From a virus: a DNA stretch of 29,545 bases. Positions 7,566 to 24,298 of this stretch are shown here, in pieces. Location of the stretch: positions 1-29,545 of IMG/VR virus record IMGVR_UViG_3300042553_000536. The stretch is one strand, 5' to 3'. How positions within the stretch are numbered: the stretch's first letter is position 1; each line of letters starts with the position of its first letter. Made by a program: the position numbers and the translations under genes. Below the pieces are notes generated by a model. That model did not search any database and was not told the origin of the DNA. It saw only the letters and a program-made list of their open reading frames with translations.

Positions 7566-9836
7566 ATGCCGCTTTTCACCATCGCCAATACTGATCCGGT
7601 CCTGATCGGGAGCGGCCGCACGATTTCGGTCACCAACACCGTCGGGCAAAACGTCCGGTTGCTTTCGACTCCGAACAACTCTGAGCCAGACGCTGCGCTT
7701 GTTCGATCTAGCGGCGCCCAGCTCGCTTCGGGATCTAGCACCACGTTCACGGCGGCGTTTGCCCCGATCTGGGTTTGGGCGATCACCGAGACGGTTGGGA
7801 ACTTCACCCCGAGCACGCTGGACGTCACGACGGTTGACTGGGCCGCGAACACTCCTGGGCTTACGCAGGTTCCACTCCCGAACCAGAACGTCCACCAGCT
7901 TGCGCTAGCATTCACGGCGGCACCGACCGGCGGCACTTGGGCATTGACTACGGGCATCCTCAACGCTTCAAGCGGCGCGGCGATCACGGTCACCGGCCAA
8001 GCGTGGAACGTCACGGCGGCTACCCTGCGGGACAACATTCAAACCGCGCTGAACACCCCGGCTCCAGGATGGCGAGTCTCGGTGATCGGTGGTCCGTTCC
8101 CGATTCGCCCCTACATTGTCACCTACGTCCACAGCACCGGCGCGGCGGCGGGCATCCCCACGGCGGACGTTTCAGGATTGACCGGCGGCACCGGCGTCAC
8201 GTTCGCACGGTCCCAGGTTGTTAGCCAAGTTGGGACGGGCCGGTCTGGAATCTCTATGCTTGGGCCACGGGCCAAGATCACCAAGGACTTCCAATCGGAT
8301 TCGGGTGGAACTCAGAGCACGGATAACGGCTGGAGCATCGACGGGACCGGCGCGACTCGGTTCACGGCCACGGCCACGGGCAACAACATTGCGGCAGTCA
8401 CCCGGTTCAATGGCCCGGTAGACCTTTCTCGCGGCCCGTTGGTGGTGCAAGTTTACAACCCGCAGGACGCTTTGGTGGCGGGCTTGCTGACGCTTTGGAC
8501 ATCTCACCCAACTTCGCCCGGTGGGACCACGCAAGACATTTCCGTGACGTTGGAGCCGGGACCGTCGCAACTCGTGGTAGATGAGTCCCGGCTTGGGAAC
8601 GGTGGCGTTGACTACCGTGTCACTAACGCGGTTTCCGCAGTCGCAAACGCTTACACGGGTGAAGGCTACTGGAACGCAACGGGGCTTGCGGGCCTAACGG
8701 TTTCGGATATTCGGGTGCCAGACACCGACCGCCCCGGCTTGGTTTGCTTCACCTGGGACGATTGTTTGATCTCCTTGCTGGACAACGGAATCAACAGCGG
8801 TTTGCTTGCCGAGTATCCCGACATTCCCCACACCCTCTACGCGGTTCACTCGTGGATGCGAAGCGGCGCGCGCTCGATTGGGGTAGGCGCGGACTCTGCC
8901 CAGGTCATGACCCAGGCGCAGATGCAGTCCGTGGTTCGGTCCCCGCAGTTTGCCATCGGCAACCACTCGCGTAACCACTACCGGTACGAGGCTCAAGAAG
9001 ATCCACTGTCAACCGCTACAACCGCAACCGACCAGATTATTCGAACGGGTACGACGGCCCCAGGTGGCGGAACCTTCACTCTTACGATTCCGGGCGTCGG
9101 CACTACTGGGAACCTTGCATGGAACGCAACCACCAAGGTCATCCAGGCGGCACTGAATTCGCTCGTTGCCAACACCCGAGTGGTGCTTTATTCCGGCACA
9201 TCAAACAACCTTGGAAGCCAATATTCGTTCCGCGTCATCTTCCCGACGGCGCGACCGATCATGACGGTGGACAGCACGAACCTTACGGCTGGTGGCGCAA
9301 CGATTGTATCGGGCGCGGCGTTTACTCCGGCACGAATCGCAGAAGAGTACCGAACAAACGCAGAGCTTCTGCGGGAGGCAGGGTTCACGGTTCGGAATGA
9401 CCTTATTGTCTACCCGCAGGGATCGGTTGGGCCGAACGTCATGGCGGCAATGGAAACGGTTCCGGGGGTTCGGGCTGGACGGGTTGACCGTGCACGAGCT
9501 GGACACCGCACGTTCTACGGTGCGGCGGCACTCTACGGCTCTGGGAACGAACGGGCAAAGTACCTTCTTCCCACTTCCATCCTCGGGACCACGGGAACGC
9601 AGACGGCCAACAACCTGGACGACATCATGCGGGTCTCGACTCGCGGCGGAAACCTCATCTTCATGGGCCATGGGGTTGTAACTAGCGGTGGTGGCTCGGT
9701 GGACATTCTGAACACCGACCTTCGGCAAGTGCTTTCCTTGGTTTCTCAGATGATCCGCGCCGGACGCCTTCGAGCGGTCTGGCCGTGGGAGATGCTTGAC
9801 GCGGCGGGAATTCCGGCGGCGACGACTCCTGCCTAA
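7566..9836 (+). CDS. Tail-fibre protein with NodB/CE4 polysaccharide deacetylase domain
   Basis: This 756-residue protein has a beta-rich N-terminus (1-110) and an immunoglobulin-like module (about 112-215). An intermediate beta region follows (220-390), then a CE4/NodB catalytic domain. Motif 1 is FTWDD (D398, D399), motif 2 is HSRNH (H467, H471), the H-(S/T)-x-x-H zinc motif, motif 3 is VYPQGS (616-619) and the terminal motif is MGHG (H702). These give the metal triad Asp-His-His and a candidate base. A second copy of the N-terminal-type module (GGTFTLT...WNATT...IQAALN, about 497-584) is inserted between motifs 2 and 3. CE4 enzymes remove N- or O-acetyl groups from peptidoglycan, chitin-like polymers, exopolysaccharide or capsule. 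On a tail fibre this would modify the host surface during adsorption. The fold call is strong; the substrate is unknown. Confidence 0.8.
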   Translation: MPLFTIANTDPVLIGSGRTISVTNTVGQNVRLLSTPNNSEPDAALVRSSGAQLASGSSTTFTAAFAPIWVWAITETVGNFTPSTLDVTTVDWAANTPGLTQVPLPNQNVHQLALAFTAAPTGGTWALTTGILNASSGAAITVTGQAWNVTAATLRDNIQTALNTPAPGWRVSVIGGPFPIRPYIVTYVHSTGAAAGIPTADVSGLTGGTGVTFARSQVVSQVGTGRSGISMLGPRAKITKDFQSDSGGTQSTDNGWSIDGTGATRFTATATGNNIAAVTRFNGPVDLSRGPLVVQVYNPQDALVAGLLTLWTSHPTSPGGTTQDISVTLEPGPSQLVVDESRLGNGGVDYRVTNAVSAVANAYTGEGYWNATGLAGLTVSDIRVPDTDRPGLVCFTWDDCLISLLDNGINSGLLAEYPDIPHTLYAVHSWMRSGARSIGVGADSAQVMTQAQMQSVVRSPQFAIGNHSRNHYRYEAQEDPLSTATTATDQIIRTGTTAPGGGTFTLTIPGVGTTGNLAWNATTKVIQAALNSLVANTRVVLYSGTSNNLGSQYSFRVIFPTARPIMTVDSTNLTAGGATIVSGAAFTPARIAEEYRTNAELLREAGFTVRNDLIVYPQGSVGPNVMAAMETVPGVRAGRVDRARAGHRTFYGAAALYGSGNERAKYLLPTSILGTTGTQTANNLDDIMRVSTRGGNLIFMGHGVVTSGGGSVDILNTDLRQVLSLVSQMIRAGRLRAVWPWEMLDAAGIPAATTPA

Positions 9837-13371: not shown

Positions 13372-14076
13372 CTAGGCGATTTTCTCCAACCCCATCATCT
13401 TGACCACCACCGCCGCAAACCCTGCATCCTCCAGGCGCACGTCAAACGGCAGACCGTCAAACGGGTATAGCCGGTATTCCTCGGCTACGTTGTGGTAGAC
13501 CTTGATGTCCTCCGACCGTCCAGCTACTTCTATTGCGGGTGCGCAACAGCGGTGTACAACGCAGGACGATTGACCGAACTCCGCAAGGCTTTGGGTTATG
13601 TTGCCGACGTGGATTCTCGCGTCTCCAACGATCCGATAGAACCGAACGTTGTGGCAACCACCACCGTGAACATCGGTCATCCAACAATCCCTGGTCACGA
13701 TGTCGTTGTCCGTGTCTCCAATCTGGACGTCCCGGCTTCCGTCCGTGACCATGATCGCGGAGTGGAGGTTCTGGAAGAACCCGCCGCCACGGATCAGCAC
13801 GTTCTCGGAGTTGTTGATCACGATCCCGTAGCCCCTGCGGTAGGGCGGTGGCTCTGACGTTGTGCAGGTGACCGTTGGGTTGATGATCGTGACGTTCCGG
13901 CACTCTTCTAGGATCAGCCCGGAGTTCTGATTGTCCTCCCCGTTCATGGTGACTTCGATGTGGGGAAGCTTGAAGTTGTCTATCCCGATAATCCGCGCGG
14001 GTACCGGGTTGCCTAACCACCCCACGAGTTGGGAATGGGTGCGGATGACGAGCTGCTTCGTGACGAGCTGCTTCAT
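13372..14076 (-). CDS. Short right-handed beta-helix (pectate-lyase-like) protein
   Basis: This 234-residue protein has repeated short strands with Asn/Gly/Asp turns spaced like beta-helix rungs: SGLILEECRNVTIINPTV, YGIVINNSENVLIRGGGF, SAIMVTDGSRDVQIGD and HNVRFYRIVGDARIHVGN. That pattern is typical of parallel beta-helix proteins such as pectate lyases and phage tailspikes. There is no signal peptide, membrane segment or obvious catalytic Asp pair. It is translated from ATGA overlap 14073-14076 within the leftward early operon, just before xis and int, which is unexpected for a tail-type fold. It may be a lysogenic-conversion or cargo gene, or a truncated tailspike relic under new control. 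Function unknown. Confidence 0.6.
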   Translation of the reverse strand: MKQLVTKQLVIRTHSQLVGWLGNPVPARIIGIDNFKLPHIEVTMNGEDNQNSGLILEECRNVTIINPTVTCTTSEPPPYRRGYGIVINNSENVLIRGGGFFQNLHSAIMVTDGSRDVQIGDTDNDIVTRDCWMTDVHGGGCHNVRFYRIVGDARIHVGNITQSLAEFGQSSCVVHRCCAPAIEVAGRSEDIKVYHNVAEEYRLYPFDGLPFDVRLEDAGFAAVVVKMMGLEKIA

Positions 14077-14501: not shown

Positions 14502-15325
14502 GCGGTCACCTCTTCGCTTGCCTTGGCGAGCGTGGCCCGCAGGAGTTCGGTGGCGAAGTTTTCCATCGCGTGGACGTCGTTGTACAGGCGGACCTTTGCG
14601 CTGGTTTCGTGGACGTGGACGAAGTTGCCGGTGCCCTTCTCGGTGAACTCCAGGAAGTCGCATCCGGCCATGCGCAGCGCAGCGGCTTCGAACCTCCGGC
14701 CGTCGTGGTCGATGCGGAAGCGGTGATTTCCGTTTGGCCACGGCTTTTCGGGTTCTTCGGCAGGCTCTTCCGGCGTGCCCTCTTGGACTTCGAACGTCTT
14801 CTTGTATTCGTCCCACCACGTCCAGGCGAGGGCCTTCCCACCGATGGCGGAACCTTCGGGGTCCGTGAATGCTTGGTCCTCGACGAGGGTTTCAATGACT
14901 TCTCCGCCCTTGATTTCGGCGACGTTTAGCAGCCAACGGCCGGTGTGACCTTCGCCCTTCGCATCGTCCTCACCGTTCGTGAGCGGCGCAAACTCAGCCT
15001 TCACTGAGGCTCTGATGATCCGTCCGTCCCAAGTGATGATCTCATCCATCCCCGAGTCCTCCCGCGAGATGGCACCGCCTTCGACGAGCCGCGGTTGGGA
15101 ATAGACGTCACCGTGAGACACGACGCGGCGGATGTGCAGCGCGGTTGCTTCGGGGATCAGGTCCGGGTCGACGTCGAGCTGACCGGCATTCACGAGGTCG
15201 AGCAGGTGACCCTGGACGTCCTCGGTGCGAATGCCGATGGACTGGGCGAGGTCCGCGAGTTCTAGCTTTCCGGGCTTGCGCACGGCGGCGGTGATGGCTT
15301 TTTCGATTAGGGTTGGTTTGCTCAT
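14498..15325 (-). CDS. Hypothetical early protein, 275 aa, winged-helix-like N-terminus
   Basis: The first 60 residues (TLIEKAITAAVRKPGKLELA ... IGIRTEDVQGHLLDLVNAGQL) look like a winged helix of the kind used to read DNA. The middle is a mixed alpha/beta region containing GRWLLNVAEIKGGEVIETLV, then an acidic linker (TPEEPAEEPEKPWPNG). The C-terminus is a beta-rich domain (HRFRIDHDGRRFEAAALR). ATGA overlap with the exonuclease gene and GTGA overlap with the next gene show coupled expression. I recognise no family; a DNA-binding or recombination-accessory role would suit the neighbouring exonuclease. Confidence 0.58.
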   Translation of the reverse strand: MSKPTLIEKAITAAVRKPGKLELADLAQSIGIRTEDVQGHLLDLVNAGQLDVDPDLIPEATALHIRRVVSHGDVYSQPRLVEGGAISREDSGMDEIITWDGRIIRASVKAEFAPLTNGEDDAKGEGHTGRWLLNVAEIKGGEVIETLVEDQAFTDPEGSAIGGKALAWTWWDEYKKTFEVQEGTPEEPAEEPEKPWPNGNHRFRIDHDGRRFEAAALRMAGCDFLEFTEKGTGNFVHVHETSAKVRLYNDVHAMENFATELLRATLAKASEEVTA

Positions 15326-15888
15326 GGCTGGATTAGGTGGTGATAGATTCGGCCCGCGAGGATGCAGTCTTCGAGTGCTTCGTGAAGGTCGGTGGATCTT
15401 GAGAGATTGAAGTGAGCGGCGACGGTATCGAGCTTGTTATCCGGTAGCGAGAGGCGCGAAGCCATTCGCCGGGTGCAAGCCCACGGGCCACGGAGAGGTT
15501 CGGGGAATGCCCTGAACTTCCCGTAGTCCCAGACCCCGCACCGGAAGACCATCTGCGAGAGGAATCCCGCATCGAATACCGCGTTGTGGCTGACGATCAT
15601 GCCGTCCAGCATCTCGAAGTCTGCGGCGAGCTTCTGCAACTCGGTGAGGACGGTGCGCTCGGGGCTTCCGCCGGAGATGAGCGCCTTCATGTTCGAACCG
15701 CTGACACAGAGGGCCGAGTAGTCGTATTCGAGGGCGAGACCTCCGGCCTTCTTGGTCGGTGGCTGGATCTTCCATTCGTGCGAGTGGATGACTTCAAGAC
15801 CATCCATCACGGCCACTCCGAGGCTTACCGGCCCGTGGCGTTGGGGATCCAGCCCGCCGGTTTCGAAGTCAAGGGCGAGGATTCTCAC
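15322..15888 (-). CDS. DEDDh 3'-5' exonuclease (DnaQ/RNase T-like)
   Basis: GTG 15888 is selected because it overlaps the preceding stop (GTGA) and has GAGGTG 4-5 nt upstream; GTG 15903 is less well placed. The 188 residues show all three Exo motifs: D7 and E9 in LALDFETGG, D106 in SHNAVFDAGFL, and H169 plus D174 in HEALEDCILAG. That makes it a DEDDh-type two-metal exonuclease on single-stranded DNA or RNA ends. The segment ACTRRMASRLSLPDNKLDT is the usual piece between Exo II and III. It may proofread, trim ends for recombination or degrade host nucleic acid; in an operon ending with int and xis, DNA-end processing is plausible. Confidence 0.85.
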   Translation of the reverse strand: MRILALDFETGGLDPQRHGPVSLGVAVMDGLEVIHSHEWKIQPPTKKAGGLALEYDYSALCVSGSNMKALISGGSPERTVLTELQKLAADFEMLDGMIVSHNAVFDAGFLSQMVFRCGVWDYGKFRAFPEPLRGPWACTRRMASRLSLPDNKLDTVAAHFNLSRSTDLHEALEDCILAGRIYHHLIQP

Positions 15889-16082
15889 GCGACACCTCGC
15901 CACTCGTCGACCAGCTTGTTCGCTTCCTCAACGAGGGTCGGAACGGGGACCGTTTCTTTCTTCGCGGCAAGGGCTTTTACAAGAAGCTCCATCTGCACTA
16001 CCTCTGCGACAATTGCGTCCCAGGTGCTGGAAAACCCAACGTAGTCGCGGCCTGCGTCAACTAATTTGCGGCTGGGTCTCAT
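15885..16082 (-). CDS. Hypothetical small helical protein, 65 aa
   Basis: ATG 16082 overlaps the upstream gene's stop and the TGA overlaps the exonuclease GTG, so it is embedded in the operon. The protein is mostly helical (WDAIVAEVVQMELLVKALAA and TLVEEANKLVDEWRGV), soluble and of mixed charge, with a basic N-terminus (MRPSRKLVDAGRD). There is no recognisable motif. Its small size and tight coupling upstream of the exonuclease could mean a partner subunit, but nothing in the sequence proves it. Confidence 0.6.
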   Translation of the reverse strand: MRPSRKLVDAGRDYVGFSSTWDAIVAEVVQMELLVKALAAKKETVPVPTLVEEANKLVDEWRGVA

Positions 16083-18189: not shown

Positions 18190-19137
18190 ATGAGTTCAGC
18201 ACTGCTGATTAATGATCGAGCCGCATGGCTTGAGCGAAGGCGCCGGGTCATCTCGGCTACCGACATCGCCGCAATCGCCGGCGTTCATCCCTACTCGACC
18301 CCTCGGAAGGTCTACCTCGATAAGCTCGGACTAGAACCCGAACTTGAAGAGAACGACGCGATGCGGTTCGGGAACTACATGGAACCGATCATCGCGGCGG
18401 AGTTCATCCGCACCAACCCAGGAGTGGGCGAAGTGGTGAAAGCGGACTTTGTGGTCCATCCCGAGTGCGACTTCTTCGGCTGCACGCCCGACTTCTATGT
18501 CGGTGACAACGCGGTCCTAGAATGCAAGTACGCGGGAGTCAACACCGCGAGCGCGTTCGGCATCGAGGGTTCCGACTTTGTGCCGGACCACTACCACATC
18601 CAAGTTCAGTGGCAACTCTACTGCACGGGCCGGTCGGTCGGATACCTGATGGTCTGCACGCCGCCGTCGTTCAGGCTCTACACCATCCCGGCGGACCACG
18701 AGCTGCACCTTCAGCTTGCGTTCCACGCCCGGAAGTTCTGGCACGAGTACGTGAAGCGTGAGGTAGCCCCTCCGGTCACCGGGCACAAGCCGGACACCGA
18801 AGCGATCAAGGACGCCCACCCGATGGACAACGGCCAGCTCGTTGTTGCCCCGTTCGCGGTGGACGAAGCCGCGGCAAAACTCCGAGAGGTCACCGCGCAC
18901 CTCGGAGCGATCGAGGAGGAACAGGCCCGGCTGCAGAACATTCTGAAGGAATGCCTCGGAGACGGTCAGATCCTCGAAACCACGGAAGGGAGGTTCACCT
19001 GGAAGACCCAGGAGCGAGCCGTCACCGACTGGAAGGGACTCGCCAAAGCCCACAACCTGCCCGCTGAATGGCTCCAAGCCTTCACCAAGACCCAAACAAC
19101 CCGCGTGTTTCGCACGCCCTTCGGAGGAAAAGCCTAA
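18190..19137 (+). CDS. YqaJ-like viral recombinase exonuclease (lambda Exo family)
   Basis: This 315-residue protein belongs to the YqaJ/lambda-exonuclease PD-(D/E)xK family. The family opening RRRRVISATDIAAIAGVHPY is present. The catalytic core follows: MRFGNYMEP with the conserved Glu, D101 in CTPDFY, and E111 and K113 in LECKYAG, followed by HYHIQVQWQLYCTG. It resects double-stranded DNA 5' to 3' to leave a 3' strand for annealing. The RecT gene starts in its stop codon (TAATG), the classic exonuclease-annealase pair. The C-terminal region (about 220-315) has a coiled-coil-like stretch (LREVTAHLGAIEEEQARLQN), probably for oligomer or partner contact. Confidence 0.9.
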   Translation: MSSALLINDRAAWLERRRRVISATDIAAIAGVHPYSTPRKVYLDKLGLEPELEENDAMRFGNYMEPIIAAEFIRTNPGVGEVVKADFVVHPECDFFGCTPDFYVGDNAVLECKYAGVNTASAFGIEGSDFVPDHYHIQVQWQLYCTGRSVGYLMVCTPPSFRLYTIPADHELHLQLAFHARKFWHEYVKREVAPPVTGHKPDTEAIKDAHPMDNGQLVVAPFAVDEAAAKLREVTAHLGAIEEEQARLQNILKECLGDGQILETTEGRFTWKTQERAVTDWKGLAKAHNLPAEWLQAFTKTQTTRVFRTPFGGKA

Positions 19138-19958
19138 TGTCCAACATCGTAGCCGTCAACGACCTTCTCACCAAGCGAGCATCGTCCATCCAATCCATCG
19201 CCCCTACCGGCATGGAAGCCAAGAAGATCATCAAGATCGTTCTCAATGCGATTACCAAAACCCCGGCCCTGCAAAGCTGCTCGCCGGAGTCGGTCTTTCG
19301 CTCGGTGATGCACGCGGTAGAACTCGGGCTTACCCCCGGTTCGTCGCTCGGTGAGGCGTACCTCGTGCCCTACGGCAAGGAGTGCCAGCTCATCCCCGGC
19401 TACCGGGGCCTCATCACCTTGGCTCGTCGCTCGGGCGAAGTCTCGACGATTACCAGCTACCCGGTGTATTCGGGTGACGAGTTTGACTTTGAGCTTGGTC
19501 TCAACCCGGTCCTGCGCCACATCCCGCACCACGGAGAACGCCAGCCCAGCGACATCACCCACGTCTACTGCGTCATCCGGCTAAAGGACGGCGGCGTCGT
19601 CTTCGACGTCATGACGCGCGGCGAAGTGGATGCGGTCCGCAAGCGGTCGAAGGCGGGAGGTTCCGGCCCATGGGTGACGGACTACGCGGAGATGGCACGC
19701 AAGACGGTGACCAGGCGGTGCCTGAAGTACGCGCCGATGAGCGTGGAAATGTCGAAGGCGCTCGCGATTGACACCGCCGCCGACACCGGCGACATGTCCA
19801 TCCTCGCAGAGTTCGGTGACCCGGACGACGCGCTGCTCATCGAGGCCGGTCCCACGAAGGCGGACGCATTGAAGGCAAGGCTCGGTGACGTTCCCAATGC
19901 CCTCGACACCGCCACCGGTGAGGTGACCCCAGGACAACAGGAGCTGTCCAGCAACTAA
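19137..19958 (+). CDS. recT: RecT single-strand annealing protein
   Basis: ATG 19137 overlaps the exonuclease stop (TAATG), giving 273 residues. RecT landmarks are clear: SPESVFRSVMHAVELGLTPG, then EAYLVPYGKECQLIPGYRGL, ITLARRSGEV and the C-terminal PWVTDYAEMARKTVTRRCLK block. RecT coats single-stranded DNA and anneals complementary strands, acting with the upstream exonuclease in phage recombination and concatemer formation. The last 60 residues are acidic and low in complexity, probably a flexible tail for host SSB or partner contact. A strong terminator follows 12 nt after the stop. Confidence 0.93.
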   Translation: MSNIVAVNDLLTKRASSIQSIAPTGMEAKKIIKIVLNAITKTPALQSCSPESVFRSVMHAVELGLTPGSSLGEAYLVPYGKECQLIPGYRGLITLARRSGEVSTITSYPVYSGDEFDFELGLNPVLRHIPHHGERQPSDITHVYCVIRLKDGGVVFDVMTRGEVDAVRKRSKAGGSGPWVTDYAEMARKTVTRRCLKYAPMSVEMSKALAIDTAADTGDMSILAEFGDPDDALLIEAGPTKADALKARLGDVPNALDTATGEVTPGQQELSSN

Positions 19959-19970
19959 TCCAAGACCATC

Positions 19971-20008
19971 CCCCGGCCTGAGCATCCCTCAGCGTCCGGG
20001 GTTTTTTT
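19971..20008 (+). terminator. Rho-independent terminator inside the rightward early region
   Basis: CCCCGG (19971-19976) pairs with CCGGGG (19996-20001) around an inner CTGAG/CTCAG stem, followed by seven T (20002-20008). The next gene starts only 20 nt later with no visible promoter, so downstream early genes must rely on read-through, antitermination or an unseen promoter. Confidence 0.85.
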
Positions 20009-20027
20009 GGAGCCAACGGAGCTACCT

Positions 20028-20420
20028 ATGATATTTACCGACATCCTTTTTACTGTCATCGCCGCCTTCGTTGCGGTTCAGATGTTCATCCTCACTCAGC
20101 TCGTGCGGTCGGTCCTCGAAGCGACGCGAACGCCTCGGTACCTCTTCGTTCCCATGTCGGACGAAGACGGGGGCGATGACGACGACGACGAGGACGACGA
20201 GCCGACGCACCCAGCACCTCCCGGCAACGAGACCATCAACGAAGCCCTCGATCGGTTGCAGCCATCAAGCCCCCACGTGCGGCTTGGTGATGCGCCGGTG
20301 ACCGCTGACTTTCGGTCTTCAGTTGATCGAATGATGGAAGCAATCTGGCCGAACCCGTACGCCGATGGCGTGCTCGACCAATCTCACCACGAGATCGACG
20401 GGAGGCACGAGTGGCGATGA
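20028..20420 (+). CDS. Membrane-anchored acidic protein, 130 aa
   Basis: ATG 20028 is chosen for its GGAG seven nt upstream; the longer frame would start inside the terminator T-run. Residues 2-27 form one hydrophobic helix (IFTDILFTVIAAFVAVQMFI) with basic residues after it. A run of Asp/Glu follows (about 44-57, GGDDDDDEDDEP), then a polar Pro-rich part. The acidic run is unusual and would be cytoplasmic or periplasmic depending on topology. No family is recognised. It overlaps the next small gene by 10 nt. Confidence 0.55.
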   Translation: MIFTDILFTVIAAFVAVQMFILTQLVRSVLEATRTPRYLFVPMSDEDGGDDDDDEDDEPTHPAPPGNETINEALDRLQPSSPHVRLGDAPVTADFRSSVDRMMEAIWPNPYADGVLDQSHHEIDGRHEWR

Positions 20421-20602
20421 AGCACAAGTTCGAACTCGGAGACCGCTACATGACCCAGGACGGCCGTGAGCTTGTCATCATGCGGACCTTCACGCGAGGG
20501 ACCGGCAGATGGTACGTGCTCTCGAACGGTGATGAGGTCATCACGTCCACGTTCCGCTATTGGCTCTCCAAAGGGCTGGTCAAAAAGGTTGGTGACGACT
20601 GA
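20411..20602 (+). CDS. Small beta-rich protein, 63 aa
   Basis: GTG 20411 has GGGAGG six nt upstream, better placed than the in-frame ATG 20417. The product (KFELGDRYMTQDGRELVIMR ... GRWYVLSNGDEVITSTFRYW) looks like an SH3/KOW-like small barrel: a G-D turn, paired strands and a basic end. It resembles in pattern the two small proteins at 21045 and 21257. It has a TGATG overlap with rusA. Such folds often bind nucleic acid or protein partners, but no function can be read. Confidence 0.58.
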   Translation: MAMKHKFELGDRYMTQDGRELVIMRTFTRGTGRWYVLSNGDEVITSTFRYWLSKGLVKKVGDD

Positions 20603-21048
20603 TGGTCCACAACCATTCTCAGGTCACGATCTTGGGCAGTGTTGCGCTTCCACCACCGCCGTCGGCCAATCGGCTTTGGAAGACCTTTCGAGGCCGCGCG
20701 GTTCGGTCGGCGGAGTTCAATAACTGGCTGAAGGAAGCAGTCATTCAGATCCAATCGAACATCCGCCCAACCTCGGGGCCGGTTGCGGTTCGCCTCGTGC
20801 TTCACCTCGGCTCCGGAGTCATGCGGACTGCTGACCTGGACAACTTCCTCAAGCCGACCCTCGACGCGCTCAAGCCGGAAACCAGGCACAAGGAAACCGG
20901 CCAGGTGACCAAGCCGGGCGCGGGAGTGATCGCTGACGACAACCTCGAAGTGGTCCGCTCCATCGAGTTGGACATCCGCAACGAAGGCCCGAAAGTCCAC
21001 GGCAAACGTCCACCGGCTGAGCTGATCGTGGAGGTGTGGGCACTATGA
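20602..21048 (+). CDS. rusA: RusA-family Holliday junction resolvase
   Basis: This 148-residue protein shows the RusA pattern. The N-terminal strand carries ALPPPPSANRLWKTFRGRAV, the catalytic block is TADLDNFLKPTLDAL (D78, D80, D88) and the second acidic block is GVIADDN (D112, D113). RusA dimers cut four-way DNA junctions symmetrically and resolve recombination or replication intermediates before packaging. Between the two acidic blocks there is a longer insert (PETRHKETGQVTKPG) than in E. coli RusA. The gene is coupled on both sides (TGATG start; ATGA end) and lies near the exonuclease/RecT pair, forming one recombination module. Confidence 0.88.
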   Translation: MVHNHSQVTILGSVALPPPPSANRLWKTFRGRAVRSAEFNNWLKEAVIQIQSNIRPTSGPVAVRLVLHLGSGVMRTADLDNFLKPTLDALKPETRHKETGQVTKPGAGVIADDNLEVVRSIELDIRNEGPKVHGKRPPAELIVEVWAL

Positions 21049-21260: not shown

Positions 21261-21421
21261 GACCCATATCCTTCTTCGAAGGCCAGCGGTTACGGTGGGA
21301 CGGTAAGACCTATCGTGTCGCGAACGTATTAGCCTTTAGCTGCATTGTAGTAGGCGAAGACGGGTTCGCCATCTGCCTCTCTAAAGCCGTACTTCGGTCG
21401 GTCTTCGTGGAGGTCGAATAA
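21257..21421 (+). CDS. Small beta-rich protein, 54 aa
   Basis: GTG 21257 overlaps the preceding TGA (GTGA), and the TAA overlaps the replication gene ATG (TAATG), so both ends are fixed by coupling. It reads MRPISFFEGQRLRWDGKTYR, VANVLAFSCIVVGEDGFAIC, LSKAVLRSVFVEVE. It is a run of short strands very like the first part of the 71-residue neighbour and probably a diverged paralogue. Function unknown. Confidence 0.58.
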   Translation: MRPISFFEGQRLRWDGKTYRVANVLAFSCIVVGEDGFAICLSKAVLRSVFVEVE

Positions 21422-22365
21422 TGGTTAGCAACGAGCGATGGATTCGGTTAAATGCCCATTGGTCCTACTCTGAGTGGCTCGTGAACCTTGATTGGTGCGT
21501 GCGGGCCGTCTGGCCGGAGTTCTTGTGCGCGGTCAAGCGTGCGGGCACTCGTGGGCGGCTCAAGTGCCGGCCGGTAGCAAGGCTCGCCGGAGAGATGGGA
21601 ATCCCCAAGGAATTCGTTGAGCAGCTCATCGAGGCAGCCATCGCAGACGGCGCTCTAGCCATCGAAGACCGCTGTTGGGTGGTCACCAAATGGGTGCAAT
21701 ACCAGCCGAAAGACGCGGCGGAACGCATGAGGGAGATGCGATCGAGGAGAGCTGAAGACGCCGAAGAGGCCCAAGAAACCCCCGATTCTGAAGATTCTCA
21801 GGTTCAAACGTTACGCGAGCGTTACGCGCCGTTACGCGATGTTACGAATTCCCCTGTTACGCGCGACAGAGGACGAAGGACAGAGGACATAGGACAGAGG
21901 ACGAAGGACGATAGACGGACTACGAAGGACAAACAAGTCCTAGACCATGACCAAGGCCAAGGGGGGAAACAAACTTCTTCGAAGATGGTTGAGCCTCCCA
22001 CGGTGGAGATGGTTTGCCTTCGGTTCCAGCATCACCACGGAATGGAAGAGCGAGCCTCACAAGTGCAAGCTCTCAAGTTCTGGAACTACCACGAAGGCAA
22101 GGGTTGGACGATCCGAAACAAGCCGATGGTGAGCTGGACGAGCGCGGTTCAGACCTGGTACCGAAACCTCTCAGAGGCCGAAAAAGACGGGTCTAACTAC
22201 CGGACCCCTGTCGGAACACCTAACAGTACCCAAAACGCGTCAGCGGGGCAAATAGACGGCAAAAACGGGCAATTATCGGGCGAGACGTCACCACGCAAAA
22301 CGTCGATCTACAACTCCGAAGGGATGATTCGTGCCGAAGAGGTGCCGCAGGAATGGCTGCAATGA
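21421..22365 (+). CDS. Replication initiator / replisome organizer (lambda O-like arrangement)
   Basis: In this 314-residue protein, residues 1-105 look like the winged-helix DNA-binding domain of phage replisome organizers (RWIRLNAHWSYSEWLVNLDW, VARLAGEMGIPKEFVEQLIE, WVVTKWVQYQPKDAAERM). Residues 106-185 are a polar, low-complexity linker. The C-terminal domain (about 190-250) has FQHHHGMEERASQVQALKFW and KGWTIRNKPMVSWTSAVQTW, typical of modules that contact the helicase. The gene for a DnaB-type helicase follows with an overlap, so the protein probably melts the origin and loads that helicase. Five iterons and a heptamer array lie inside the linker-coding DNA, as lambda ori lies inside O. 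Overall similarity is by architecture, not by a signature motif. Confidence 0.7.
   Translation: MVSNERWIRLNAHWSYSEWLVNLDWCVRAVWPEFLCAVKRAGTRGRLKCRPVARLAGEMGIPKEFVEQLIEAAIADGALAIEDRCWVVTKWVQYQPKDAAERMREMRSRRAEDAEEAQETPDSEDSQVQTLRERYAPLRDVTNSPVTRDRGRRTEDIGQRTKDDRRTTKDKQVLDHDQGQGGKQTSSKMVEPPTVEMVCLRFQHHHGMEERASQVQALKFWNYHEGKGWTIRNKPMVSWTSAVQTWYRNLSEAEKDGSNYRTPVGTPNSTQNASAGQIDGKNGQLSGETSPRKTSIYNSEGMIRAEEVPQEWLQ
21810..21930. other. Putative replication origin: iterons plus heptamer array inside the initiator gene
   Basis: Five copies of GTTACG (four as GTTACGCG) start at 21810, 21821, 21831, 21841 and 21856. The first four are spaced 10-11 bp, one helical turn. They are followed at once by six GGAC units in exact 7-bp steps (21871, 21878, 21885, 21892, 21899, 21906), with looser copies at 21917 and 21927. 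The array is purine-rich on one strand. A 7-bp period does not fit codons, so selection on DNA rather than protein is likely. An AT-rich unwinding element is not obvious. Confidence 0.62.
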
Positions 22366-23693
22366 TCGAACTCGACGACTACCGCGGGCCGGACGTCCCG
22401 GCCAATGTCGAGGCTGAAATGGCGCTCCTCGGATGCTGGATTCTCGATGCGAGGAGCAGCTACAAGCACTGCGGCAGGATCGAGCCTCGTGCGTTTTGGC
22501 ACCCGACTCACCAGATGATCGCTCGTGCAATGGCTGCGCTTTTTGATGAGTCGGTGGTTTGGGATCTTATCATCCTGAAAGACCGACTCGAAAGAGATGG
22601 AAACCTTACCAAAGTTGGCGGCGAGGACTTCCTGATCCAAGTTGCTGAAAGTCCGGTCGGTGTCGGAGCGGTCGAAGGCTACTGGAAGATCGTCAACGAA
22701 AACTGGCGATGGAGAGGATTCCATCACCGCGCTAATCGGTTAGCAAAACTTGCGCTTGATCGCGCGAATGACGACGACTTAGCCGTCGCGATGCGGGAGA
22801 TTGATGAGATCAACTCCCTGACGTTTCGAGGGCAACGAGCACCAGGAAGATTCAACCCGGATGACCTGGGTGACATGCGCGGAGTTCAGATGGGAATCCC
22901 TCAGATTGAGCGATACCTGGATCATCGCGGCTGGCCGTGCGGTCACCTCTCGGTCGTCGCCGGTGAGACTGGGCGAGGGAAGTCGACGTTTGCCCTCCAA
23001 GCGGTCTACAACCTGATTGACGATCCTTTCTCCGACCACGCGAAGCGCGTGGCCTACATCTCCGGCGAAATGTCCAGAGACGAGATATTCCGCAAGCTCC
23101 ACCGGATGCACTGCGGACGCGGAAAACGGCCGACTCCCGACGGGGTGCTGATCGAGTCGGAGTACGAGCAAGCACTCGCGAAGTGGGAAGCCGCGACCGA
23201 GTGGGTGAACCGCGCGGACATCACGGTCATGGACCTGAGAAGCGACTTCGGCGGCCGCTGCGAGATCGGACGCGCCATGTCGTGGCTTCAAGCCCAGCAC
23301 CGACAATCGCCGGTCGACGTCTGCGTGGTGGATTACTTCCAGCTCTTCAACCTCGAAGGGTGGCGCGGGCAAAGGTACGAAGAGGTCGGACTGATGTCGA
23401 AGATGATGATGGACACCGCGAAGACTCTCGGGATTCCCATCGTCACCCAGTCGCAGGTGACCATCAACGCCCAAGGCGGATACCAGACCCGCGACGGCCG
23501 GCAACTGGAAGACGACGCGGCCCTGATCGTCGACGTTCGCCGCGGCAAAGACGGGACCGGCAAGGATGCGAAGGAAGACCCGAACCGGACGGAGGTTGTC
23601 CTACGCAAGGTGCGTTTCGGGAACTCGCGGGTGGTGATCCCCGCCCGTTTCGACCACGGCCGCCGGATGCTCGACTTCGAGAACCTTGACTAG
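22353..23693 (+). CDS. Replicative DNA helicase, DnaB type
   Basis: This encodes 446 residues from ATG 22353 (GAGG ten nt upstream); ATG 22362, which overlaps the previous stop as ATGA and has AGGA nine nt upstream, is an equally good start. The N-terminal helical domain (about 15-110: PANVEAEMALLGCWI) is the primase/loader-contact part of DnaB. The RecA-like domain has Walker A GETGRGKST (204-212), the H1a-type EMSRDEIFRKL block and Walker B VCVVDYFQLF. An H3-like TQSQVT and a C-terminal Arg-rich strand (TEVVLRKVRFGNSRVV) follow. It unwinds the fork as a hexamer after loading by the upstream initiator. Confidence 0.92.
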   Translation: MAAMIELDDYRGPDVPANVEAEMALLGCWILDARSSYKHCGRIEPRAFWHPTHQMIARAMAALFDESVVWDLIILKDRLERDGNLTKVGGEDFLIQVAESPVGVGAVEGYWKIVNENWRWRGFHHRANRLAKLALDRANDDDLAVAMREIDEINSLTFRGQRAPGRFNPDDLGDMRGVQMGIPQIERYLDHRGWPCGHLSVVAGETGRGKSTFALQAVYNLIDDPFSDHAKRVAYISGEMSRDEIFRKLHRMHCGRGKRPTPDGVLIESEYEQALAKWEAATEWVNRADITVMDLRSDFGGRCEIGRAMSWLQAQHRQSPVDVCVVDYFQLFNLEGWRGQRYEEVGLMSKMMMDTAKTLGIPIVTQSQVTINAQGGYQTRDGRQLEDDAALIVDVRRGKDGTGKDAKEDPNRTEVVLRKVRFGNSRVVIPARFDHGRRMLDFENLD

Positions 23694-23719: not shown

Positions 23720-24298
23720 ATGCGGCAACTCAGTCTCTTCAATCCACCAAGCGAGGTCAAGACCCCGGAAGGGGCTCCGCCGCCGGATCTGATTGTCGTT
23801 GAGAAGTGCACACCATTCCAAGCCCCCGACGGGCCGCTGTCGACGTGGCCGGACATTGATCTGCTTCGGGTCGGAACGCCTGAGTCGGTCGGCGAGTTTC
23901 TCGGACGCTACCGGCGAACGCTGGAAGGATTCGACGAGGAGCACCACGGTCTCGTCGTGGCGAAGTGGATGAACGCGGCGACACGTTACCGCCCGGTGGA
24001 ATCGGCGAAGCTCGTGACGTGGCTGATTTACGTCGGCAACAACGCCATTCGGGACGCAAAGCGGAAGCTCATTCGCCATGAGATCGGTCACAAATTGTTT
24101 CAACGGACCACGGTCGAAGCAGACACGCCTTACGAGACGTTCATCGAGGCCGACTACCTCGCGTGGGATTTCGACCACGTTGATCCAGATGTGGCGGAGC
24201 TTGCTCGGTCGGTCATGTCCGGTGAAATCGAGCCTGACCAGCTCACCGATTTTGAGCGTCAATCCCTTCGAGATGCGTGGGAGACGCTGCAGCTATGA
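23720..24298 (+). CDS. Sigma-like protein, putative late-gene regulator
   Basis: This 192-residue protein has AAAGGA well placed upstream. Residues 74-120 resemble sigma70 region 2: WMNAATRYRP, then KLVTWLIYVGNNAIRDAKRK, comparable with the R-Y-D-P ... F-x-x-W-L-x-x-I-x-x-N-x-I-x-D-x-x-R pattern. Residues 157-192 (VAELARSVMSGEIEPDQLTD, FERQSLRDAWETL) resemble the start of region 4 but end before the DNA-reading helix. The first 70 residues are Pro-rich and unlike sigma. Directly upstream of terminase, this is where Gram-positive phages carry ArpU/sigma-like late activators. It may direct RNA polymerase to late promoters. The similarity is read by eye and is moderate. Confidence 0.5.
   Translation: MRQLSLFNPPSEVKTPEGAPPPDLIVVEKCTPFQAPDGPLSTWPDIDLLRVGTPESVGEFLGRYRRTLEGFDEEHHGLVVAKWMNAATRYRPVESAKLVTWLIYVGNNAIRDAKRKLIRHEIGHKLFQRTTVEADTPYETFIEADYLAWDFDHVDPDVAELARSVMSGEIEPDQLTDFERQSLRDAWETLQL

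Follow-up and report, generated by a model that had tools for sequence, protein, structure and literature searches.

A candidate phage replication origin inside the initiator gene, with GTTACG iterons followed by a purine-rich GGAC ladder

Within the gene for the replication initiator of a phage lie two adjacent sets of short repeats, and the question raised by this locus is whether they form a replication origin on which the encoded protein would act, or whether they are a by-product of encoding the linker of that protein. The window (the whole stretch of DNA analyzed, a virus record of 29,545 bases) encodes an integrase, an S24-type repressor, RecE/RecT, RusA, the initiator, a DnaB helicase, a terminase, a portal protein, and tail proteins. 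The initiator gene is preceded in the same block by recombination genes that together span 18190..21048 on the plus strand, and it is followed directly by the DnaB helicase gene, with the ends of the two genes overlapping. The features of this block are as follows.

18190-19137, plus strand: RecE-like exonuclease, recombination gene upstream of the initiator gene
19068-19958, plus strand: RecT, recombination gene upstream of the initiator gene
20602-21048, plus strand: RusA resolvase, recombination gene upstream of the initiator gene
21421..22365, plus strand: replication initiator gene (ORF, 314 aa), with a predicted winged-helix N-domain (approximately residues 7-111), a repeat-bearing linker, and a C-terminal domain
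21809..21864, plus strand: five GTTACG iterons, at 21810, 21821, 21831, 21841, and 21856, probable initiator binding sites
21864..21933, plus strand: purine-rich 7-bp ladder, six exact GGAC units (21871-21909) with degenerate flanking units in the same register
21880..21980, no strand: low-stability duplex segment by nearest-neighbour energy, a candidate opening region that overlaps and follows the ladder
22353..23693, plus strand: DnaB-type replicative helicase (Pfam DnaB and DnaB_C; PHROG 19, E 1e-39)

Results

Two repeat arrays in the initiator linker

The GTTACG copies are separated by steps of 11, 10, 10, and 15 bp, such that four share a 10-11 bp phase that the fifth does not keep. The motif itself is not rare, with 12 occurrences in the window compared with 8.6 expected, but its clustering here is unusual. 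The GGAC units that follow start at 21871, 21878, 21885, 21892, 21899, and 21906, in exact 7-bp steps, and they generate five GGACnnAGGAC junctions, where 0.43 would be expected across the whole window. The 7-bp register extends in degenerate form from CGACAGA (21864) to GGACAAA (21927), giving about ten units. The initial annotation had placed an iteron origin at 21810-21930, with five GTTACG copies, four of them in 10-11 bp phase, and six GGAC units in strict 7-bp steps; a motif scan confirmed the iteron positions, the GGAC units and their spacing were likewise found as described, and Tandem Repeats Finder calls both arrays. The coordinates given there are correct except that they stop slightly short at the 3′ end, as the register runs to about 21933.

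Both arrays were compared with shuffle controls covering 21790-21960 (20,000 shuffles), made by synonymous recoding with the gene's own codon usage and by codon reordering. Neither kind of shuffle produced five GTTACG copies (0 of 20,000 synonymous recodings). The 7-bp tandem score was matched by 0.05% of the synonymous recodings and never after codon reordering, and neither kind of shuffle reached the 14-bp tandem score. The shuffles thus fall short of both repeats, which indicates repetition beyond what the protein needs, and the GTTACG and GGAC repeats in the initiator linker are not forced by the protein sequence.

The ladder is also the most purine-rich stretch in the window at lengths of both 60 bp (0.80) and 100 bp (0.75). 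By nearest-neighbour energy, 40-bp segments starting from 21880 to 21940 rank within the lowest 2-4% of the window in stability, and the GC content is 53-60% in the ladder and about 50-53% in the low-stability segment at 21880-21980, beside the iterons. A second weak segment of similar rank is found at the start of the initiator gene, and since this is about equally weak, duplex weakness alone is not diagnostic. The GC skew of the window has a weak local minimum near 21.0 kb, with no stable flip at third positions.

The initiator protein

An AlphaFold model of the N-domain, built from a six-sequence alignment, has a mean pLDDT of 80.6 over residues 7-111 and contains helices and a two-strand wing in the element order of a winged helix. 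The viral models that Foldseek places closest include replisome organizers and replication initiators, and the matches in the PDB are to winged-helix regulators, with the initiator structures 4pta and 4pt7 lower down, all of them with weak E-values. The N-domain is predicted, with moderate confidence, to be a winged-helix DNA-binding domain. Residues 114-256 match PHROG 15768 (E 1e-7), which is the sole PHROG match, with none to PHROG 2149, 1408, or 16167; a search of Pfam at E 0.1 matched no family, including that of the lambda O protein.

Relatives of the phage and of its initiator

No relatives of this initiator were found in IMG/VR, in the phage collection, or in 199 genomes of the phylum of L279, and GTTACG followed by three GGAC 7-mers had no match in IMG/VR; the exact combination of GTTACG and GGAC appears, as far as searched, to be private to this phage. 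The relative with the closest terminase (L157, 97% identical in protein), the DNA of which is 92% identical from about position 23,900 of the window to its end, has a primase gene in place of the initiator-helicase pair and a separate ACCACTCGCC repeat set behind the primase. This relative was rejected as a test of repeat conservation, because its replication block has been replaced by the primase. Origin and replication genes appear to have been exchanged as a block, which would be expected if the origin lies inside the block. The region behind the primase (L157:2648-2951) contains many copies of ACCACTCGCC and GGCGAGTGGT in both orientations, with 37-nt perfect inverted arms, and these repeats are a candidate origin of another type.

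A scan of IMG/VR for four GGACnnA units returned 116 stretches. There are 92 distinct arrays, most of them outside initiators, and seven distinct initiators carry one. In these seven, which were recovered by the GGAC 7-mer pattern only, the array is in the linker just after other, mostly clear, repeats that are candidate iterons (CCCGGAACAGT; AAACCGTTCCTG eight times; TCGCGA-type). By a rough estimate, fewer than one GGAC array would be expected by chance in initiator linkers, even allowing a 150-bp linker per 20 kb per viral contig. The GGAC 7-mer unit is not specific to origins. Heptamer arrays of the GGACnnA form are scattered in viral contigs outside initiators (L122-L155, L161-L242), where they occupy RTEDRGQ-type open frames. 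GTTACG alone was rejected as a mark of origins, as most GTTACG triplet matches in IMG/VR are simple repeats, repeats in tail proteins, or intergenic.

Initiators that carry GTTACG iterons were found in IMG/VR and in genomes, and mostly have ladders of AGAGA (5 bp), ACAGA (5 bp), CAGATA (6 bp), or AGAGAT (6 bp) after the iterons. Ladders of 5- or 6-bp steps are present in most of the dozen GTTACG-type initiators examined, and 6-bp steps do occur in this class; the ladders of L030 and L403 are weak, that of L075 contains GGACA units left unscored by the scan, and L108 has a pyrimidine-rich array. A genome search with the GTTACG-type alignment gave two clear matches in 299 genomes, and a PHROG 15768 search of 399 genomes gave one match, to an AT-rich initiator that has repeats of its own and, after them, an A-rich purine strand.

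Initiators fetched by the N-domain alone

Further initiators were collected with an alignment of five N-domains that contained no linker sequence, the five seeds themselves having been found through GGAC arrays, and this search yielded 80 genome loci and 80 viral loci (L243-L402). Across 146 distinct linkers, GGAC pairs are 66-fold denser at a lag of 7 and 62-fold denser at a lag of 14 than in the rest of the loci. A tandem score of at least 12 was reached by 101 of 138 linkers but by a single N-domain and 5 C-terminal segments; at the 5% level, 113 of the 138 linkers are more repetitive than synonymous controls. The most frequent leading periods are 7 (40), 5 (25), 10 (19, mostly iterons), 12 (8, often 5+7), 6 (4), and 11 (4), and the leading units are AAGGG, AAGGATC, ACCTAGG, AACAGGG, and AAGGACC. 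A typical linker has TCGCGA iterons and then units with a GGA core, spaced by 5 or 7 bp and rarely by 6. When 98 loci were aligned on the last iteron, GGA density was raised approximately 6-8-fold, and purines reached 0.74, only within the 60 bp that follow it. Spacings between GGA copies of 5 (208) and 7 (203) far exceeded those of 6 (56), 3 (18), and 9 (2). This strong preference for 5 and 7 in the linkers of L243-L402 leaves a gap at 6. The array is 3′ of the iterons and on one strand in most members, and some weaker matches, for example several Pseudomonas and Streptomyces members, have no clear array; the ladder is common in these initiators, not universal.

Members of the fetched set match PHROG families annotated as replication initiation protein, and several have genes for DnaB, a primase-helicase, or a P-like loader downstream. 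When mapped on a tree built from the N-domains (140 rows), array type undergoes at least 29 changes over 112 classified rows (shuffled mean 53), and the 5- and 7-bp forms interchange 20 times (shuffled 38). Array type therefore follows descent loosely, the element persisting while its spelling changes. The suggestion of the initial annotation that the 7-bp array is likely selected as DNA gains support from these relatives, in which arrays recur after iterons: their steps are mostly of 5 or 7 bp, a misfit with codons, and the encoded peptides differ, from which it would follow that the array is kept as DNA.

Discussion

The closest known comparator is lambda ori, which lies in gene O and, like the locus in the window, has iterons inside the initiator gene followed on the 3′ side by an asymmetric tract that is purine-rich on the coding strand, with a helicase-recruiting gene next to the initiator gene. 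The lambda tract directly after iteron 4 has a coding-strand purine fraction of 0.78 over its best 50 bp. Lambda O binds the iterons, it is the A+T tract next to them that unwinds, and A- and T-rich single strands are bound by O as well (PMC7466680, PMC5043065). The two loci differ in that the lambda iterons span 18-19 bp and have inverted symmetry (PMC5043065), whereas those in the window are short direct GTTACG units, in that the lambda tract is A+T-rich, whereas that in the window consists of GGAC units in 7-bp steps, at about 53-60% GC, and in that lambda uses the P loader, whereas this phage encodes its own DnaB helicase. The initial claim of the same design as lambda ori holds up, given the predicted winged-helix N-domain, the linker iterons, the DnaB gene next door, and the purine richness that the lambda tract shares, and from sequence features the locus is supported as an in-gene iteron origin like lambda ori. 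That claim had added a second repeat type as a departure from lambda; the array is real, and its description as a difference should be softened, as the best reading by analogy is that the ladder would be the GC-rich counterpart of the A+T-rich opening element of lambda.

We consider it probable, though well short of certain, that this stretch is the phage's replication origin inside its own initiator gene and consists of two functional blocks, the iterons and an opening ladder. The winged-helix N-domain would bind the GTTACG iterons as duplex DNA, and assembly of the initiator on them would cause the strands of the purine-rich, relatively weak GGAC ladder to separate. The initiator, or a partner, may then keep the ladder repeats of one strand single-stranded, and the captured strand would allow loading of the DnaB helicase encoded by the next gene, such that replication would start here. 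There are precedents for such a reading of repeats in an opened strand by DnaA and RctB (PMC10797057). Like the ladder, the DnaA-trio of oriC and the (G/A)ATCA repeats of RctB in V. cholerae ori2 are short repeats beside duplex binding sites, and the GGATCAA ladders of the relatives contain GATCA; those systems have other initiators and shorter units, and it is only by analogy with them that the ladder would be bound as single strand. The initiators of PHROG 2149, 1408, and 16167 similarly combine iterons with a GGA ladder after them in the linker of the initiator gene, although they have no family match to the initiator of the window, the iterons of which are GTTACG and not TCGCGA.

It is conceivable, if unlikely, that the ladder is a by-product of a linker that need only be long, polar, and disordered, with slippage repeats being tolerated and the iterons forming the origin alone or with another weak segment. 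The encoded peptides are indeed all polar (RTEDxGQ, GPRTKDQ, REGKG, DTDTDT, REEKR), array type does turn over (29 tree changes compared with 53 shuffled), GGAC 7-mers are present elsewhere too, and purine-rich codons suit a charged flexible linker and could explain part of the composition. Slippage by one unit of 5 or 7 bp would shift the frame, yet it is steps of 5 and 7 that dominate and those of 3, 6, and 9 that are scarcer, and this account must also accommodate both the array of most members, which follows the iterons on their 3′ side and on one strand, and repetition above the synonymous controls. That the ladder is read by a factor other than the initiator, for example host primase or an accessory protein, is less probable again. 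The same GGA core after unrelated iterons of diverged initiators would suggest a shared reader, but the units vary (GGACCAA, GGATCAA, GGACCTA, GGGAACA, GAAGG) beyond what a strict host site would allow, and no candidate factor was found.

Least probable of all, in our judgment, is that the ladder acts through an RNA:DNA hybrid, in which purine-rich message, left paired to the template strand by transcription through the gene, would open or prime the origin. The purine-rich strand is the coding strand, and a purine-rich RNA strand favours stable RNA:DNA hybrids. Precedents are the activation of lambda ori by transcription and the opening of ColE1 by a hybrid that persists (PMC5043065). Set against this, the activating promoter of lambda ori may lie downstream, and the origin need not be transcribed (PMC5043065); moreover, the array of the GTTACG-type initiator L108 is pyrimidine-rich, and a hybrid would not require spacing of 5 or 7. 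Two further candidates were set aside on general grounds: GGA sites acting in mRNA (CsrA, Shine-Dalgarno-like), which explain neither the place beside the iterons nor the 5/7 steps, and primase trinucleotide sites, with which only TCC is shared, on the complement.

Returning to the two-block origin, iterons differ by class (GTTACG, TCGCGA, AAACCGTTCCTG, CCCGGAACAGT) and a purine-rich ladder follows each, and this recurrence across initiator classes suggests that a functional component of such origins has been overlooked. A broader proposal, which we put forward tentatively and at slightly less than even chances, is that phage in-gene origins have in common a second, undescribed element, in which units with a GGA core, or other purine-rich units, form a ladder on one side, mostly in steps of 5 or 7 nt, just 3′ of iterons of any sequence, and are read as single strand. 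The unit would change fast, whereas the element would keep its presence, place, and polarity; the window would contain the 7-nt GGAC form. Our literature search, which covered few subscription papers, found no description of such ladders. The proposal bears on how initiators may open GC-rich replicons without a strongly A+T-rich element, and in GC-rich phages the ladder would mark, at the level of sequence, a candidate opening block, by which the origins of many phages and prophages not yet studied could be found from sequence. A clean test is possible, since recoding of the array can leave the protein unaltered.

Elsewhere in the window, the early region encodes on the minus strand a protein resembling a DNA polymerase exonuclease subunit (15322-15903, PHROG 192), and a tail-region protein at 7566-9836 has a weak match to PHROG 10909, with a middle part that by eye resembles a polysaccharide deacetylase. 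A perfect 15-bp tandem duplication, TGACGAGCTGCTTCG, is found at 14046-14074, at the start of a minus-strand ORF, and encodes KQLVTKQLV.
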